This document shows positions 1-44,508 of a DNA stretch of 44,827 nucleotides, one piece after another. Position 1 is the stretch's first letter. Each line of letters starts with the position of its first letter. The position numbers and the translations under genes were made by a program. The notes below the pieces were generated by a model. That model was not told the DNA's origin. It did not search any database and saw nothing but the letters and a program-made list of their open reading frames with translations. Source of the stretch: an uncultured Mucilaginibacter sp. (GTDB taxonomy: Bacteria; Bacteroidota; Bacteroidia; Sphingobacteriales; Sphingobacteriaceae); the NCBI GenBank assembly GCA_903887275.1, contig CAISPD010000018.1, positions 1 through 44,827 on the forward strand. Reading direction: 5' to 3'.

Positions 1-302
1 ACATTAATAATAACTCAATAAAATACAAAAAAAATGGTCAAGAAAATATAGCAATAGCCAATTCGATAAATTGATAACGGCTATACCTAAAAAGATTAAC
101 TCAGCCCGGCCACACCAGCCGGGCTTTGTTGTATCCTTAAGGTTGCGGGTATAGCTATATATACAACTATGTGTATATCTGTTAATGCGTTTGTTTTTTA
201 AGCTGCAAGTTGTGTTTTTGTGGCACCCAAAAACCTACTTGCCCTACCGCCGGTGGGCGGTGGGATTGGTCGGCCTGCGCAACTTGGTCTTTCTATAACC
301 TT
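1..302. other. Non-coding left edge of the element
   Basis: No convincing gene is seen. It holds a plus-strand terminator (103-130) and a perfect 6-bp hairpin, ACCGCC/GGCGGT, at 246-261 downstream of the XRE gene. A weaker CAAGTTG/CAACTTG pair lies around 205 and 280. The second hairpin has no adjoining T-run on either strand, so it is not called a terminator. Confidence 0.5.
103..130 (+). terminator. Rho-independent terminator for an upstream gene beyond the left edge
   Basis: AGCCCGGC (103-110) and GCCGGGCT (118-125) form a perfect 8-bp GC-rich stem with a 7-base loop, followed by TTGTT. The T-rich side is on the plus strand, so it would end a transcript entering from the left. The T-run is short. 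Confidence 0.6.
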
Positions 303-32767: not shown

Positions 32768-32791
32768 GCAAACAATCAATCAATTCAATAG

Positions 32792-32822
32792 GCGTCGCGG
32801 AGTATTCCGGGGCGCTTTTTTT
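32792..32822 (+). terminator. Terminator of the symporter gene
   Basis: GCGTCGCGGA (32792-32801) pairs with TCCGGGGCGC (32806-32815) with one mismatch and one G-T pair around a 4-base loop, followed by TTTTTTT. It starts 24 bp after the stop codon. Confidence 0.75.
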
Positions 32823-32848
32823 ATTGGTAGGCGTGCATAAAGCAGTTT

Positions 32849-32899
32849 GGGCTAAAGCCCTTTGGGGTTTTGCAATAGCCCGTTGGCTGAAGCCAACGG
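32849..32899. repeat. Two short REP-like palindromes
   Basis: GGGCTAAAGCCC (32849-32860) and CCGTTGGCTGAAGCCAACGG (32880-32899) are perfect palindromic hairpins 19 bp apart, directly before the tandem repeats. Such pairs resemble REP/RAYT-associated palindromes. Confidence 0.6.
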
Positions 32900-32935
32900 C
32901 AATATTTAAATAGCATTAGTTAGATTAAATTTCGC

Positions 32936-33320
32936 CGGGCTATCATTGTTGCGCTCCCATTTATAGGAGGGATCAAGAACAAAAATAAATTGGCTTTGGC
33001 CCCAAAAAAGCTCGCTAAATCCGTATCGAAAAAGCAACCTGCAACTTGTCCAAAACATCTGGGTATATGAATCGGACATTTTCATTGCCGTCCCATTTAC
33101 GGGACGGATAAAGAATAAAAATAAATCGGCTCTAGCCAAAAAAGGACAGCAAAAATATGTATCGAAATAACAACCTGCAACTTTTCCAAAACACCACGGA
33201 ATATGACCCGGACATTTTCATTGCCGTCCCATTTATGGGACGGATAAATAATAAAAGTAAATTGGCTTTAGCCAAAAAAAGCCCGGATAAATTTGAAGCG
33301 AAATATGAAGCCTACAAAAA
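32936..33320. repeat. Three degenerate tandem copies of a ~136-bp unit with two hairpins each
   Basis: Copies start at 32936, 33073 and 33209 (the third is shortened). Each has a hairpin, CGTCCCATTTACGGGACG in copy 2 and CGTCCCATTTATGGGACG in copy 3, against CTCCCATTTATAGGAGG in copy 1. Each also has a TTGGCTTTAGCCAA-type palindrome, and copies 1 and 2 share CAACCTGCAACTT-TCCAAAACA. The stem base pair next to the loop arms swaps C-G for G-C between copy 1 and the others. No protein gene is credible here. They are probably palindromic elements mobilised in trans. Confidence 0.7.
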
Positions 33321-33678
33321 GTGAATATTTCTACTTCGTAACAAGAATTATTAATTGCCAACCGCCACAGCCTAAAAGGATTAGGATTTGATCATCGTAG
33401 TTCACTATTAACCTAATTATCTATCTTGAAAGTAATCCTATTAACCTTTTCAGTACCTAATATCTTATTTTTCAGCAGTTTGATACTTAACAGATTTGAA
33501 CATGTTAACCCAGGTTGGTAGCACTATTAATATTTAGCTGATCAATAGTGAACTGTTAATTGGTGATTTGTTAACCAGTGCCTAATGAACATTGACTAAT
33601 GCCCAATGCCTAACCAGTACAACCAAAGCCAAAACACCCTATATTAGGCTACTGAAAATATAAACCACCATTAACACC
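33321..33678. other. Gene-free leader region of the uronate operon
   Basis: A+T-rich, with repeated TTAACC motifs and a distant 10-bp inverted repeat (GTTCACTATT at 33400, AATAGTGAAC at 33544). It holds a heptamer array at 33581-33615. No clear TAnnTTTG promoter was seen. Confidence 0.4.
33581..33615 (+). repeat. Heptamer repeat array upstream of the uronate operon
   Basis: Consecutive 7-base units CCTAATG, AACATTG, ACTAATG, CCCAATG and CCTAACC, of the same CYYAATG type as the arrays before the two tRNA-Glu genes. Confidence 0.5.
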
Positions 33679-37999: not shown

Positions 38000-39297
38000 C
38001 GAATTCAAAGCCAGGGAACTATCGTTGGGCGATTTGTGCACTGCTTTTCCTTGCTACTACGATCAACTACCTGGATAGGGCAGTGATCAGTTTACTAAAA
38101 AATACACTCACCAAAGATTTTCGCTGGAACGATGGCGACTACGCCAATATTGAGATAGCATTTAAGATCGCCTATTCCATTGGTTTACTATTTGCCGGCC
38201 GGTTGATCGATCGGCTCGGTACAAAGCTTGGTTATTTTTTGGCAACGTTTTTATGGAGCGTCTCTGCCGTTTTACACGCAATAGTAAACAGCACCTTCGG
38301 ATTTATCTTTGTCAGGTCGGCATTGGGCCTAACCGAAGCAGGCAATTTTCCTGCGGCAATCAAAACTGTGGCGGAGTGGTTCCCCAAAAAAGAACGGGCG
38401 CTGGCTACAGGTATATTTAATACCGGGGCGGGTGTGGGACCAGTTATAGCCCCCTTAACAGTACCTTTTATTGCAGCAGCATGGGGTTGGAGGATGGCAT
38501 TTGTAATTACTGGCTCTGTAGGCTTTATCTGGCTGATTTTATGGCTCTGGCTTTATGAAATACCCTCGCGACAAAAGCGTGCTACAGCCTCTGAGTTGAA
38601 ATATATCTACAGCGATGCAGAAACAGGCGGCGATGGCGAACAACATTTGTCGCCTGTAGCCTGGCATAAATTATTGGGTTTCAAACAAACCTGGGCCTTT
38701 GCATTAGGTAAGTTTTTAACTGACCCGATCTGGTGGTTCTATCTATTCTGGCTGCCAGACTTTTTGCAAAGCGAATATAAATTGACTTTAAAAGCTATAG
38801 CGGTTCCCGTTGCTGCTGTGTATGTGATATCAATGGCCGGAAGTATTTTGGGGGGCTATTTCCCTAAGCTACTTATTGAACGTGGATGGACGGTGTTCAG
38901 AGCAAGAAAGACATCAATGCTTATTTATGCATTTGCCGTGGTACCCATCATCTTTGCCCAAATTTTAGGAAACATCAATATGTGGCTTGCCGTTTTGATC
39001 ATTGGCCTTGCTGCTGCTGCTCACCAGGCCTGGAGCGCTAATATTTTTACGACGGTATCTGATATGTTCCCAAAGCGTACAATAGGCTCAGTTGCCGGAT
39101 TAGGTGGCATGTTCGGATCAGTGGGAAGTGTGTTTTTGTCGTTGTTTGTTCAGAAAAACATGTTTGTTCATTATCGGGCTATTCATCATATCGAAATAGC
39201 TTATTACATCATGTTTTTCGTATGCGGCAGTGCCTATCTGCTGGCTTGGGTCATCATGCATTTGCTTGTGCCCAGGATGAGGCCTGTGGATATCTAA
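37996..39297 (+). CDS. exuT: MFS hexuronate transporter
   Basis: A 433-residue major-facilitator protein with 12 predicted helices. NYLDRAVISLLKNTLTKDF, FAGRLIDRLGTKLG and GLTEAGNFPAAIKTVAEWFPKKERALATGIFN are hallmarks of the anion:cation symporter (ACS) subfamily, to which ExuT belongs. As the last gene of the uronate operon it should bring hexuronates into the cytosol. Substrate is inferred from context. Its stop overlaps the convergent OsmC stop by 4 bp. Confidence 0.88.
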   Translation: MTNSKPGNYRWAICALLFLATTINYLDRAVISLLKNTLTKDFRWNDGDYANIEIAFKIAYSIGLLFAGRLIDRLGTKLGYFLATFLWSVSAVLHAIVNSTFGFIFVRSALGLTEAGNFPAAIKTVAEWFPKKERALATGIFNTGAGVGPVIAPLTVPFIAAAWGWRMAFVITGSVGFIWLILWLWLYEIPSRQKRATASELKYIYSDAETGGDGEQHLSPVAWHKLLGFKQTWAFALGKFLTDPIWWFYLFWLPDFLQSEYKLTLKAIAVPVAAVYVISMAGSILGGYFPKLLIERGWTVFRARKTSMLIYAFAVVPIIFAQILGNINMWLAVLIIGLAAAAHQAWSANIFTTVSDMFPKRTIGSVAGLGGMFGSVGSVFLSLFVQKNMFVHYRAIHHIEIAYYIMFFVCGSAYLLAWVIMHLLVPRMRPVDI

Positions 39298-39767
39298 GAT
39301 CCTATTACACTAATTGGTTGATGCCTAACCGGGAAGTTAACTGAATTTGCAATAAAACATAGCTCGCTTGCTTTATGGTGAAGTTGGTTGGCTTTTTCAA
39401 GCATTGATGCCTCTTTAACTGTTACTACAGGATTGAGCACCACTTCGGTAAAATGCCCTCCGCCGTTGGGAGTCTCTCTCATTGCACCCGTAGCGGTATC
39501 CTGATAGTCGACTACAATAACGCCATTTAATACACAAACATGCAGGTAAGAAAGCATATGACAGGTAGATAATGCCGCAACAAGCAATTCTTCGGGATTA
39601 TACAATGTTGGATCGCCCCTGAAAGCCGGATCAGATGAGCCTGAAATTTCAGCTTTATTTGTGGCTTTTATAGTATGATCCCTATCGTAGCTCCTGTAAT
39701 CGTTGGTGCCGGTTCCACGGTTTCCGGTCCATTTTATAGTTAATTGGTATTGATGCGCTTTCCCCAT
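39294..39767 (-). CDS. OsmC-family peroxide-resistance-like protein
   Basis: A 157-residue OsmC/Ohr-type thiol peroxidase. The N-terminal strand hairpin (HQYQLTIKWTGNRGTG), the helix NPEELLVAALSTCHMLSYLHVC with the first conserved Cys, and ASELCFIANSV with the second are as in the family. The ATG at 39767 is preferred to the TTG at 39773. It faces the uronate operon and lies divergently from the sensor kinase gene. Likely acts on organic hydroperoxides in the cytosol. Confidence 0.88.
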   Translation of the reverse strand: MGKAHQYQLTIKWTGNRGTGTNDYRSYDRDHTIKATNKAEISGSSDPAFRGDPTLYNPEELLVAALSTCHMLSYLHVCVLNGVIVVDYQDTATGAMRETPNGGGHFTEVVLNPVVTVKEASMLEKANQLHHKASELCFIANSVNFPVRHQPISVIGS

Positions 39768-39817: not shown

Positions 39818-39834
39818 TCACCCTATTAGGGGGA
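39818..39834. promoter_or_regulatory. Palindromic site upstream of the sensor kinase (17-mer, copy 1)
   Basis: Its complement reads TCCCCCTAATAGGGTGA, nearly the same as the site at 43571-43587 (16 of 17 bases). The core CCCTA-T-TAGGG (39821-39831) is a perfect palindrome. It lies 49 bp before the kinase start, so it is a candidate operator for the operon's own regulator. Confidence 0.55.
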
Positions 39835-39883
39835 GTCAATTATTTTTTAAATAAACGTTATTTGATAGTACATTTAATTGATA

Positions 39884-42883
39884 ATGAATTTGGCTCCATC
39901 GGGAAAACTAAGAAACAGCAATTGCGCCCCTCTTTTTATTAGAGTGTTGAGCTTGCTATTTTTTCTGTTTGCAGGCACAATGCTTTGCCGGGCTCAAAAA
40001 TATACGTTTACCCACTACGATATCGAGGATGGTTTGATCGAATCACAGGTAAATAACCTTGCACTCGATCACGAACATCGCCTTTGGGTAGCCACTTTTG
40101 GTGGTGCCTGCCGGTTTGATGGCAAGGAATTTATTTCTTACACCCGTCAAAACGGTCTGCCAACTAACTTTGTCAACTATGTTTTTACCGACAAATACGA
40201 TAACCAGTGGTTTGGCACACAAAGTGGCCTGGTAAAGGTGGTCAATAATAAATTGATCAATATAAAACTGCCGGATAGTCTTGATAATCGAAGGGTACGT
40301 AATATAGTTCAGGACGGCAGTGGAAATATTTGGGCCGGCATTGGGGGACGCTTGTTCAGGATAACCGGCGATACAGTAAAACTGCAATGGGTGCAGGATA
40401 CGGTTAAAAATGCAGTTACCAGTATAGCTACTGATAAACAAGGCCGATTGTATGTTTCAATTTTTAAAAAAGGGTTGTATTATCTCGAAAACGGTAAATG
40501 GATCAATTTAACATCCTTTCCAACATTGAAACAGTCATTTTATGTCGCACATATTTTCTTCGACAAAATTGACAACCGTAAAATTTACCTTCAAACCTAT
40601 ACCGCTGTTTATACTGTTATTAACGGCCGGTTAGTACCTTTTGAAAGCAAAGCAATGGCGGCAATAGCACTTAAATCTTATTTGCTGTGCACGACGCTTG
40701 ATGCGGATAATAATTTATGGATCGGGACCACCATCGGCGCCTATTATATCAAAAATCACCAGGTAACACATTTTACGGCAATCAATGGATTGACTGATAA
40801 TTCGGTAGCCGACGTTTATAACGATGCCGACAATAACCTGTGGTTTGCCACACAGGGAAATGGCTTGTACAAATATGAGGGTCAGCGATTCGTAATGCTC
40901 GACCGTTCACAGGGGCTACCCTTTAATCAGGTGGTGATGGCCATTAGTCGCGATAAAAAAGGAAATATTTTACTGGGCATGTATGGCGGTGGATTGATGC
41001 AGTATGATGGAAAAAAATTAACTACAATAAACCTTGGCCAAAATGATCCTGATCTGAAACGGATACAACACCTTTATATTGACAGCAGAGGCACTTTATG
41101 GATAGGGACCATCAATGGATTATGGAGTTACAGCAATAGAACTACCCGACGCATCAAAGCACTCAATAATTATGCTGTCAATGGCGTAATAGAAGATAAT
41201 GCCGGGGTACTATGGATAATTACATCAGGCGGGTGTTTTTATATGGAAAATGGTGCACCCCGCCGGGTTGTAAATTTTTATCGCTTTTTATCTTCTATCG
41301 TTACACTGGGCCATGACTCGGTGATTGTAGGCACTAACGATGGTATAGCGCTGCTGGTAAATAAAAATCTGGCAAAATCATTTAAGCTAAATCCACTCAG
41401 AACTTCAGCAGTTTTCAGTATCCTAAAATATAAAAATGACCTCGTTTTCGGCACCGACGACAGAGGCGTTTTTACCTGGGACAGAACCACCGGGCAAATT
41501 AATAATTACAGCCTTAAAGACGGTTTAAATTCAAATACAATCTATAGCCTTGTGTCTGATGATAAGGGAATTATCTGGGCAGGTACCGGGCGCGGCGTAA
41601 ATCGTCTTTTGCTTGACACCACAAGAAACCTATTTTCAGTTGCCGGTAATGACAGCCCGAAATCACTTATTTTAGAATCGAACCAGAATGCTGCACTTTA
41701 CGCTGATCATAAAGTTTGGATCGGAACTACGAAAGGTGCAATAATTTATGATACTGATTCAAAGCAAAACGGAGCTACAGCGCCGCACGTAATCATTCGT
41801 TCAGCCCGATTGGTATCGCAGATCGGTTCTTCAATTGGCTGGGACAATAGCACTGTGCTTACTGAAGGGGCAACGCTATCCCATAACCAAAACCATCTCG
41901 CAATTTGGTTTCGGGGAGTTGATTTAAGTAACCCAAACGCCATAAGTTATCGTTACAAACTCCGGGGGCTCGATAAATCCTATTCTGCACCGGTAACAAA
42001 CGATGTGGTCGATTATCCTTCTTTGCCTCCGGGGAAATATACATTTGAGGTAAAAGCGCTAAGCTCCGGAGGTATCCCTTCAGAAAATACCGCCAGCTTT
42101 TCATTTTCAATTACACCGCCGTTTTATCAAACTACCCCATTCCGTTTGGCTGTGGTGGCTTCATTTATTCTGCTTGGGTTTGTTATTCAAAATTTTCTAT
42201 ACCGGCGGAAATTGAAAAGGCAGCGGGTAATTGAAGCGACCAAACGTGCCGAGAGTCTGAGGATACGGCAACAAACTGCCGAAGATTTCCACGATGAACT
42301 TGGCAACAAACTCACACGCATAACGGTACTTTCCGAAATTCTGGATACTAAAATGGATCAGACACAAGGAGACCAAAAGAAGCTTTTAGAACAGATCAGG
42401 CAAAATGCGGCATCGCTTTATAATGGCACCAAGGACATTCTGTGGGCCCTGGACCCTAAAAGTGATAACTTGTATGAAATTTTAAATCATATCAAAGATT
42501 TTGGCAACGAGTTATTCCTGGATACGCAAGTAGAGTTTGAATTTGATGGAATTGATGAATCGCTAAACTCAATAAAACTTCCATTAGAGTACAGCCGTAA
42601 TATTCCGATGATATTTAAAGAATTACTAAACAATATACTTAAACATGCCCAGGCTACCCTTGTAACGCTTAAACTTGACCATTTAGAGAAATCGAAAATA
42701 GAACTTACTTTAAACGACAATGGCTGTGGTTTTTTGCAAAATGGTTCGTATAGAGGGCAGGGCATTAACAATATTATAACCCGCACAAAACGAATCGGCG
42801 GCGATATTGATATACAGTCGGAGCCCGGAAAAGGTACATTTGTTACGCTTACCATAAGTATGGCAAATCCGGTTAAAGTTTAA
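39884..42883 (+). CDS. Propeller-type sensor histidine kinase (Reg_prop, Y_Y_Y, HisKA_3, HATPase)
   Basis: A 999-residue membrane sensor. A signal peptide (ends LCRAQ) leads to a periplasmic beta-propeller of Reg_prop repeats (such as DNNLWIGTTIGAYYIKN) over about residues 25-620, a Y_Y_Y domain (YRYKLRGLDKSYS, about 675-750), one transmembrane helix (FILLGFVIQNFLYRRK, about 765) and a NarX-like kinase with phospho-His in FHDELGNKLTRI and HATPase boxes NNILKHAQA, NDNGCGF and GQGINNI. It lacks the AraC domain of classical HTCS and instead has a separate LuxR-type regulator 15 bp downstream. Ligand unknown, probably glycan-related. Confidence 0.93.
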   Translation: MNLAPSGKLRNSNCAPLFIRVLSLLFFLFAGTMLCRAQKYTFTHYDIEDGLIESQVNNLALDHEHRLWVATFGGACRFDGKEFISYTRQNGLPTNFVNYVFTDKYDNQWFGTQSGLVKVVNNKLINIKLPDSLDNRRVRNIVQDGSGNIWAGIGGRLFRITGDTVKLQWVQDTVKNAVTSIATDKQGRLYVSIFKKGLYYLENGKWINLTSFPTLKQSFYVAHIFFDKIDNRKIYLQTYTAVYTVINGRLVPFESKAMAAIALKSYLLCTTLDADNNLWIGTTIGAYYIKNHQVTHFTAINGLTDNSVADVYNDADNNLWFATQGNGLYKYEGQRFVMLDRSQGLPFNQVVMAISRDKKGNILLGMYGGGLMQYDGKKLTTINLGQNDPDLKRIQHLYIDSRGTLWIGTINGLWSYSNRTTRRIKALNNYAVNGVIEDNAGVLWIITSGGCFYMENGAPRRVVNFYRFLSSIVTLGHDSVIVGTNDGIALLVNKNLAKSFKLNPLRTSAVFSILKYKNDLVFGTDDRGVFTWDRTTGQINNYSLKDGLNSNTIYSLVSDDKGIIWAGTGRGVNRLLLDTTRNLFSVAGNDSPKSLILESNQNAALYADHKVWIGTTKGAIIYDTDSKQNGATAPHVIIRSARLVSQIGSSIGWDNSTVLTEGATLSHNQNHLAIWFRGVDLSNPNAISYRYKLRGLDKSYSAPVTNDVVDYPSLPPGKYTFEVKALSSGGIPSENTASFSFSITPPFYQTTPFRLAVVASFILLGFVIQNFLYRRKLKRQRVIEATKRAESLRIRQQTAEDFHDELGNKLTRITVLSEILDTKMDQTQGDQKKLLEQIRQNAASLYNGTKDILWALDPKSDNLYEILNHIKDFGNELFLDTQVEFEFDGIDESLNSIKLPLEYSRNIPMIFKELLNNILKHAQATLVTLKLDHLEKSKIELTLNDNGCGFLQNGSYRGQGINNIITRTKRIGGDIDIQSEPGKGTFVTLTISMANPVKV

Positions 42884-42898
42884 TTTCAATTAAACATT

Positions 42899-43525
42899 AT
42901 GAGTAAAAATATCAGGATCGTAATTATTGAAGATGACCAGATCATCAGGGAAGGTTATACCCTCCTGATAGGTCAAACCGAGGGTTATGCCGTGGTTAAT
43001 AGTTATGAATCATTTGACGACGCCGCAAAAACCATAACCGATGATAACCCCGACGTCATTTTGCTCGACATTGAACTACCTGGTACCAATGGTATTCAGG
43101 CAATACCAAGATTAAAAAGACTTTTGCCACACACTTATATTTTAATTCTTACAGTATACGAGTCGGAAAAGACAATTTTCGAAGCTTTGGCAAACGGGGC
43201 CTCTGGTTATCTTACTAAAAACACCCCGGCAACACGCATTGTTGATTCAATTCGCGAAGTGAAAGATGGCGGCGGACCCATGAGCGTTAATATTGCCCGT
43301 ATGGTAATTAAATCCTTCCAACGCAATCAGGAGTCGCCACTATCAAAGCGCGAAACCCAGATATTGGAACAAATTGCTGAAGGCAAAAGCAGGAGCCTTA
43401 TTGCCCGCGACCTGTTTATCGACCTGGAAACCGTAAGAAGTCACATCAAAAATATTTACCTCAAACTGGATGTCAATTCCAGAGCCGATGCTATTAAAAC
43501 CGCTAAAGAGAACAAACTTATCTAA
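42899..43525 (+). CDS. NarL/LuxR-family response regulator
   Basis: A 208-residue regulator. The receiver has D12/D13 (EDDQ), phospho-acceptor D57 (ILLDIELPGTNG), Thr in LTVYE and Lys in LTKNTP. The C-terminal LuxR-type HTH (SKRETQILEQIAEGKSRSLIARDLFIDLETVRSHI) binds DNA, probably as a dimer on palindromes. It is encoded 15 bp after the sensor kinase, its obvious partner, and may bind the shared 17-bp sites at 39818 and 43571. Confidence 0.93.
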   Translation: MSKNIRIVIIEDDQIIREGYTLLIGQTEGYAVVNSYESFDDAAKTITDDNPDVILLDIELPGTNGIQAIPRLKRLLPHTYILILTVYESEKTIFEALANGASGYLTKNTPATRIVDSIREVKDGGGPMSVNIARMVIKSFQRNQESPLSKRETQILEQIAEGKSRSLIARDLFIDLETVRSHIKNIYLKLDVNSRADAIKTAKENKLI

Positions 43526-43570
43526 ATTCTTTTCGCAGCAATAAAGGATTTTTGCGCCGGAATCTCAAAA

Positions 43571-43587
43571 TCCCCCCAATAGGGTGA
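43571..43587. promoter_or_regulatory. Palindromic site upstream of the AraC gene (17-mer, copy 2)
   Basis: TCCCCCCAATAGGGTGA, differing in one base from the complement of the site at 39818-39834. It lies 60 bp before the AraC start and about 20 bp upstream of a -7-like TATCTTTA at 43612, a placement suited to activation. Confidence 0.55.
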
Positions 43588-43647
43588 TATCTCGCTTTAC
43601 TCTCCCAAGTATCTTTATACTCAGCAGCATACGTTATCCCAAATGCT

Positions 43648-44508
43648 ATGAACCATACCAGGATATTGAGAAATAATAACAGGGTCACCAGCAGTAAACT
43701 GCCATCGGTTGGTCCTCAAGCTACAGGCAGTTTTACCCTTAGGTTTGTTTTTGATGGAGCCGAGCAATGTTTTATAGGACGTCGTCGTCTGGACATTCAA
43801 AATGATACTTTTTTGGTTTTGAATCCCGGTACCCGATTTACCAATATTCCCGGCCCTGATGCCACGGTATTAACTATTGAGCTGGATGCTGAATATTTGA
43901 ACAATTTCTTTGTCAACGCAAACAACATTCATGCCTTAACAGGCATTGGCTCAAACAACGCCATATTTTTGCCCGAACTGGCCGAAACAGTATATCCATT
44001 TAAAATGGAGATCAAAAATGCCGCTATCCGACTGAAAGATTATCTCGAAGAAGGCGAATACGACGAAGAGCAACTCAGCCTATATGTGGACCGCTGTCTG
44101 GTAACTTTTTATAATATTTACAACGAAGAGATCATTGAAAAAGCCCGGAAACTCAATTTTCTGCATTACAGTACACGGGTAGAGATATTACGCCGACTGA
44201 ACCTGGCCAAAGAATATTTATATGCTAATTATAGTCGCAATGTGAGCCTTGAGAGCCTGGCCGACCATTCCTGTTTGTCTGTTAATCACTTGTTGCGTAC
44301 GTTTAAGCTGGCATACAATCAATCACCTCATCAGTTCTTGATCCAGTTACGTTTGCAGCGCGCTCAATTATTACTGGCAAAAACCGAGTACCCCATTTAT
44401 ACCATTGTAACTATGGTTGGCTTTAAATGTACCAGTTCATTTATCCGACTTTTCCGTACCCGTTATAAAACCACACCACTCAAATACCGCAACGTGCTTG
44501 CCGCCTGA
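43648..44508 (+). CDS. AraC-family transcriptional regulator
   Basis: A 286-residue regulator. The N-terminal ~165 residues form a cupin-like sensor (FIGRRRLDIQNDTFLVLNPGT). The C-terminal AraC HTH pair is clear (VSLESLADHSCLSVNHLLRTFKLAYNQSPHQFLIQLRLQRA and IYTIVTMVGFKCTSSFIRLFRTRYKTTPLKYRN). It stands after the two-component pair, with the shared palindrome in its promoter, so it is probably under their control and may carry the signal further. Targets are not shown. Confidence 0.9.
   Translation: MNHTRILRNNNRVTSSKLPSVGPQATGSFTLRFVFDGAEQCFIGRRRLDIQNDTFLVLNPGTRFTNIPGPDATVLTIELDAEYLNNFFVNANNIHALTGIGSNNAIFLPELAETVYPFKMEIKNAAIRLKDYLEEGEYDEEQLSLYVDRCLVTFYNIYNEEIIEKARKLNFLHYSTRVEILRRLNLAKEYLYANYSRNVSLESLADHSCLSVNHLLRTFKLAYNQSPHQFLIQLRLQRAQLLLAKTEYPIYTIVTMVGFKCTSSFIRLFRTRYKTTPLKYRNVLAA

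Follow-up and report, generated by a model that had tools for sequence, protein, structure and literature searches.

Introduction

The described systems closest to the one considered here are the NarL system of Escherichia coli and the hybrid two-component systems (HTCS) of Bacteroides. NarL is a response regulator composed of a receiver and a GerE helix-turn-helix (HTH) domain, and it recognizes 7-2-7 sites, which are inverted repeats with CCC/GGG cores. It activates napF from a site at -40 to -49 and yeaR from a site at -38 to -47, that is, from about -43 to -45 (passages on these promoters in PMC4549865). The HTCS are single polypeptides with a large periplasmic sensor on the kinase, are associated with SusC/D, and use an AraC DNA-binding domain and direct repeats (as given in the pertinent part of PMC3878776). 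The present analysis concerns a stretch of 44,827 nucleotides from an uncultured Mucilaginibacter sp. (assembly GCA_903887275.1, contig CAISPD010000018.1), hereafter the window, in which a sensor kinase, a response regulator and an AraC-family regulator follow one another on the plus strand, and in which a 17-bp inverted repeat, or dyad, precedes both the kinase and the AraC gene. We consider it probable, at roughly 0.85, that the response regulator whose gene lies between the two dyads binds both of them and would thereby activate the AraC gene as well as the operon it belongs to. The genome carrying the window is 99.1% complete (277 contigs, 3.92 Mb).

Like NarL, the window regulator (42899..43525, plus strand; 208 aa) joins a receiver to a GerE/LuxR HTH (Pfam Response_reg, 1.9e-24; GerE, 1.1e-17), with ETVRSHIKNIY as its recognition helix region. 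NarL (1a04) is among its PDB matches, of which ChrA (4yn8), VraR (5hev) and DesR (4ldz) are the best-scoring in sequence, each over nearly the whole length, and its closest named relatives are from Mucilaginibacter, M. oryzae and M. gossypii being examples of culturable species that carry the orthologous locus. Its score against the NCBIfam NarL equivalog, 118.2 bits, is below the cut-off of 250; judged from its sequence, it is a regulator of the NarL/FixJ type by domains and not a NarL orthologue. The kinase (39884..42883, plus strand; ~1000 aa) begins with an ATG at 39884, its open reading frame (ORF) being listed from a TTG at 39878, and is composed of a Reg_prop propeller, Y_Y_Y, HisKA_3 and HATPase_c. 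This system differs from that of NarL in having a propeller sensor rather than a nitrate sensor, a dyad of 17 bp, a TCMCCC half-site in its main clade, and a Bacteroidetes-type -7 box. A large periplasmic sensor and, in relatives, an association with SusC/D are shared with the HTCS. In contrast to these, however, the kinase, the regulator and the AraC-family regulator (43648..44508, plus strand; 286 aa; a predicted direct target) are three separate genes, the DNA-binding domain is GerE/LuxR and not AraC, and the repeat is inverted and not direct.

The two dyads

Site 1 (39818..39834, centre 39826) reads TCACCCTATTAGGGGGA on the plus strand and TCCCCCTAATAGGGTGA on the minus strand and lies 49 nt before the kinase ATG, while site 2 (43571..43587, centre 43579) reads TCCCCCCAATAGGGTGA on the plus strand and lies 60 nt before the ATG at 43648. 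They are the predicted response-regulator sites of the histidine kinase-response regulator (HK-RR) operon and of the AraC promoter, respectively. These positions and spacings agree with those of an initial annotation of this DNA, which had also described the element as palindromic; it is an inverted repeat, but an imperfect one, with 7/8 and 6/8 arm pairs. With up to three mismatches allowed, the 17-mer is found at these two places only within the window, as had been noticed, the scan returning besides both sites just the reverse reading of site 1 (shuffles average 0.16, largest 1). The whole-genome scan that the initial annotation had proposed for the 17-mer found no scattering, with two exact matches in the 3.92 Mb, one place with two mismatches and two further places with three. 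The two-site observation is real and far above chance. The conserved part can be refined to TCMCCC-N5-GGGKGA, with a variable 5-bp middle and often AA in front, and in the whole genome TCMCCCN5GGGKGA is exact at both window sites only.

Conservation of the dyads among related loci

Of the 301 family genomes drawn, 25 have an orthologue of the response regulator (best E at or below 1.5e-89). The locus set, window included, holds 25 loci with a called regulator at least 69% identical, 24 of them with the kinase too, and the exact dyad stands near the kinase start in 24/24 of the latter. Over a narrower upstream stretch, the exact dyad is present in 23/24 and appeared in none of 200 shuffle rounds. 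Counting inverted repeats in front of the kinase without any guide pattern gave the same dyad in 15/24 (shuffle maximum 7). Ten further named loci contribute nine exact dyads and one with a single mismatch (L193), that of L182 fitting only if the gene is taken to start further upstream than called. These ten come from 21 loci at 69% or more (L176-L195, L233), from which 10 judged to be copies of counted loci were omitted, along with L178, whose kinase start is lost at the contig edge. Loci below 69% were not counted, and those scanned from the named-relative set are without an exact dyad. Start codons were taken from a mechanical ORF caller, and hence some sites (L096, L099, L182) show up past the called start or a long way from it.

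The second site is conserved along with the gene that it precedes. In many relatives the AraC gene is part of a VOC(glyoxalase-like)-AraC unit with a receptor of the SusC type behind it, and the exact dyad stands before the AraC gene or the unit in all 21 loci with AraC (at least 38% identity) within 6 kb. The AraC unit of G240 lies ~160 kb from the regulator locus (L126 versus L090) and keeps its exact dyad; elsewhere the dyad travels with an inverted unit (L099, L105) and stays with the unit when other genes intervene (L089, L103). Because the dyad follows the AraC unit when inverted, separated or distant, it is part of the AraC promoter and not of the 3' end of the regulator gene.

Promoter geometry

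At both promoters of the window, TTT(G/A) begins 27 nt past the dyad end. The predicted -7 region of the HK-RR promoter is GTTATTTG (39857..39864, plus strand; TTTG at 39861-39864), with an implied start near 39869, and the predicted -7 box of the AraC promoter is TATCTTTA (43610..43617, plus strand; TTTA at 43614-43617), with an implied start near 43622. The Bacteroidetes -7 box has the consensus TAnnTTTG and spans -12 to -5 (passages on this element in PMC7366714 and PMC9723704, respectively). Because the TTT box starts at +27 and the -7 box occupies these positions, both dyads have a predicted centre at about -43, as reckoned from the predicted -7 box. In class II-type activation, the site is centred near -41 to -45 and polymerase is contacted. 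The geometry of the dyads resembles that of NarL at napF and yeaR, and for this reason activation is the predicted outcome.

The same arrangement recurs in the relatives. TTTG or TTTA starts 25-30 nt past the dyad in 22/22 AraC/VOC promoters (18 TTTG), and in all 22 the TTT box starts at 27 or 28 nt. The kinase promoters are looser, with TTTG or TTTA starting at 25-30 nt in 21/24 (15 TTTG). At offsets of 26-29, TTTG/TTTA is present in 19/24 of them against a shuffle mean of 4.9 and a largest value of 12, and TTTG alone in 13/24 against 1.6 and 7 (2000 rounds in each case); TTTG alone is rare in other 6-nt bins on the kinase side (0-3 of 24).

The protein predicted to read the dyad

A 17-bp inverted repeat suits binding by a NarL-type dimer, as is predicted here, and the response regulator is the likely binder of both dyads. 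In the genus, every one of the 20 regulator-bearing genomes has two or more dyads (mean 4.75), compared with 5 of the 49 without it (mean 0.59), a genome counting as regulator-less when it gives no match with an E of 1e-74 or lower; the associated p value of 5e-11 is too strong, because the genomes share kinship and are not independent.

Paralogous regulators provide a second line of comparison, for which dyads were sought within ~260-300 bp upstream. The helix residues that would touch bases are presumed by analogy with NarL. In G207 and G165, the second regulator (helix VKTH) has a kinase of its own that is preceded by TACCCC-N5-GGGGTA, again with TTTA at +27, and four VKFH paralogs have CTACCC-N5-GGGTAG before theirs. 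A further four paralogs, with small kinases and RSH or RTH in the helix, have TCMCCC dyads with AATTT-like middles. An engineered NarL site, TACCCCTAAAGGGGTA (in the part of PMC4549865 concerned with such sites), is one base shorter than the paralogous-kinase dyad TACCCCTTTAAGGGGTA and otherwise close to it. Additionally, in L100, L101 and L104, where the 12 kb fetched contain no AraC, the dyad and box are kept before the kinase and before other genes. The regulator is the likely binder because the dyads at the paralogs' own kinases are altered, albeit not in every case, and because these AraC-less loci keep theirs.

Throughout this regulator clade, the helix changes VRSH, VKTH and VKFH may pair with the half-sites TCMCCC, TACCCC and CTACCC at the kinase promoter of each regulator. 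They would then constitute a readable specificity code, in which a regulator's own promoter would reveal its predicted specificity and to which the SusC short circuit described below would belong; this proposal is tentative, and we give it somewhat less than even odds.

Several points weigh against assigning the dyads to the regulator, beyond the overstated p value given above. Among 20 more distant paralogs (38-53% identity), a CCC/GGG dyad precedes the operon in 8 only, and the -7 box is at the expected distance in 0/8 of these. The covariation of helix and dyad is imperfect, in that L105 and L108 (VKSH) and L091 and L102 (VRTH) have TCMCCC dyads, whereas the VKTH regulators of L109, L113, L115 and L123 have mixed dyads and that of L120 has none. 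The kinase side is AT-rich, with TTTG/TTTA frequent in other 6-nt bins too (1-16 of 24), and the HK -7 region of the window, GTTATTTG, fits the consensus in TTTG only. Finally, many dyads elsewhere in relatives are without a box at +25..30, some with a different shared flank, and another protein may read similar dyads.

Upstream of the kinases of L109, L115 and L123, whose regulators are of the VKTH type, stands a pair of dyads, spaced by 38 bp, in which TCMCCC and TACCCC-like half-sites are mixed. At L125:4289, L127:4196, L131:4288, L132:4201, L133:4337, L135:4289 and L152:4341 (G162, G240, G249), the dyad is followed by similar flanks of the form (A)TTTTCGCAyATT, and most of these dyads are without TTTG/TTTA at +25..30 (L133 has one); possibly a second regulator or promoter class makes use of the same core there.

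Alternative explanations

The arguments for binding apply equally to a response regulator that represses from both sites, or that does both according to its phosphorylation state, and a dyad beside the polymerase site could conceivably hinder polymerase. The dyad, however, lies upstream of the -7 box and not over it. The 27- or 28-nt spacing in 22/22 AraC/VOC promoters is as expected for polymerase contact, the HK side being looser, and NarL activates napF and yeaR from comparable positions in the promoter passages of PMC4549865. Repression, whether outright or dependent on phosphorylation state, is regarded as quite unlikely. We hold it quite unlikely that the AraC-family protein binds both sites, autoregulating its gene and feeding back on the kinase operon, for although the AraC gene adjoins site 2 and is found within 6 kb in 21/25 loci, the dyad and box are kept where the fetched 12 kb hold no AraC (L100, L101, L104; the rest of those genomes was not searched), and the kinases of paralogous regulators are preceded by dyads of another sequence.

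On the other side of site 1 from the kinase is a divergent OsmC-like gene (39294..39767, minus strand; ATG at 39767, ORF listed from 39773), on which the initial annotation was silent. This site might mainly serve OsmC, thereby linking a peroxide-type stress gene to AraC, and its minus-strand reading does have the orientation that site 2 has toward AraC. However, the +27 TTTG faces the kinase, and on the OsmC side no TTTG/TTTA is found at the conserved distance: the window has a TTTG at +22 and L084 one at +23, and L177 and L085 have none there. Within the locus set compared, moreover, a window-like OsmC is called beside the site in L084, L085 and L087 only. OsmC is probably not the main target of site 1, and we regard this explanation as very unlikely. 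A chance or repeat-derived similarity without regulatory role, for which one might cite the mere two copies in the genome, is contradicted by the shuffle controls, the whole-genome scan and the conservation over the compared loci, and has next to no probability.

The proposed circuit

Under activation by the response regulator, a triggered propeller sensor kinase would phosphorylate the regulator, a dimer of which would bind TCMCCC-N5-GGGKGA centred near -43 and assist RNA polymerase at the -7 box. The regulator would raise its own HK-RR operon, a positive feedback, and would turn on the AraC gene, the second-tier regulator, whose product may in turn act on SusC/D-type or other genes. The sequence itself shows the sites, their uniqueness in the genome, their conservation, the promoter geometry and a partial covariation with the regulator; binding, control by phosphorylation, activation over repression and the action of AraC on such genes are what we infer. 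In the proposal of the initial annotation, the LuxR-type regulator governs both the AraC gene and the operon it belongs to, and this gains strong support from site conservation, promoter geometry, co-occurrence with the regulator and the imperfect helix covariation. As to the two-step cascade that it envisaged, comparison supports the step from regulator to AraC, whereas the second step is presumed.

The AraC step and other candidate targets

A SusC-sized protein (>900 aa, similar to the SusC-type receptors of L088, L093, L101 and L104) is encoded at most 6.5 kb downstream in 11/21 AraC loci, and in none of 18 loci with both AraC and a SusC-sized protein is there a dyad within 400 bp before the latter. 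In L101 and L104, with no AraC nearby, the dyad and box stand directly before SusC; the two SusC genes are 80% identical and may reflect one event. L120, where the only AraC-like gene is below the cut-off, has no dyad before its 924-aa protein. These observations fit a path from regulator to AraC to SusC/D that would be short-circuited where AraC has been lost, a pattern for which a single event may account.

In the window, no SusC-sized receptor follows AraC up to the contig end, and in L084, the closest relative, what lies beyond AraC is a 1141-aa Ig-domain protein and not SusC. A SusC target in the own genome seems doubtful, the best homologues there being just 34-35% identical to the SusC of L093, although the contig ends soon after the AraC gene. 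One-mismatch forms of TCMCCCN5GGGKGA occur at 12 other places in this genome, versus 2 for a backward control pattern, and were rejected as targets: 10 of the 12 lie inside ORFs, and the two intergenic ones have no TTT box at +25..30. The hexuronate operon upstream (SSF, UxuA, UxaC, kinase, KDPG aldolase, MFS) was likewise set aside, there being no TCMCCC dyad in it. Within this otherwise tight cluster, the ~900 bp from the SSF transporter to UxuA (32768-33678) hold short ORFs only.

In relatives, for which wide surroundings were fetched around most dyads of the genome scan and short loci for part of a second dyad set, the dyads point to further candidate targets, including PD40 proteins, outer-membrane receptors and peptidases. 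A broad regulon (TldD/PmbA, M1 peptidase, DUF4953, DUF885 and others) is not taken as proven, because most such sites are without a -7 box at the expected distance. The dyad occurs with TATATTTG at +27 before PD40 genes in L139, L147, L148, L263 and L265, which are likely further direct targets; the PD40 domain was tested in L139 and L147, L148 and L263 were assigned by size or flank, and L265 is the same place as L147. A dyad also lies shortly before a PmbA/TldD-type metallopeptidase gene pair at L130:4418-7399, L146:4541-7518, and L142:2695-4329 and 1348-2688, the domains having been tested in L130 only and L146 and L142 matching by size and order. At L163:4409-5423, in a genome with no regulator match at E up to 1e-74 (G181), dyad-like units recur every ~200 bp between two genes, probably as a tandem repeat.

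Significance

No publication title on this two-component system or motif was found in searches of the open literature, judged by titles and abstract openings. The comparisons make an autoregulated NarL/FixJ-type two-component system well supported as a prediction, the kind of circuit being known and the example new. With just two exact sites in its own genome, it would represent a minimal circuit of positive feedback and one downstream regulator. The motif, together with its fixed promoter geometry, would allow the genes controlled by a Bacteroidetes two-component system of the LuxR/NarL type to be predicted from sequence. If the specificity code is true, autoregulatory promoters would reveal the binding specificity of uncharacterised regulators.

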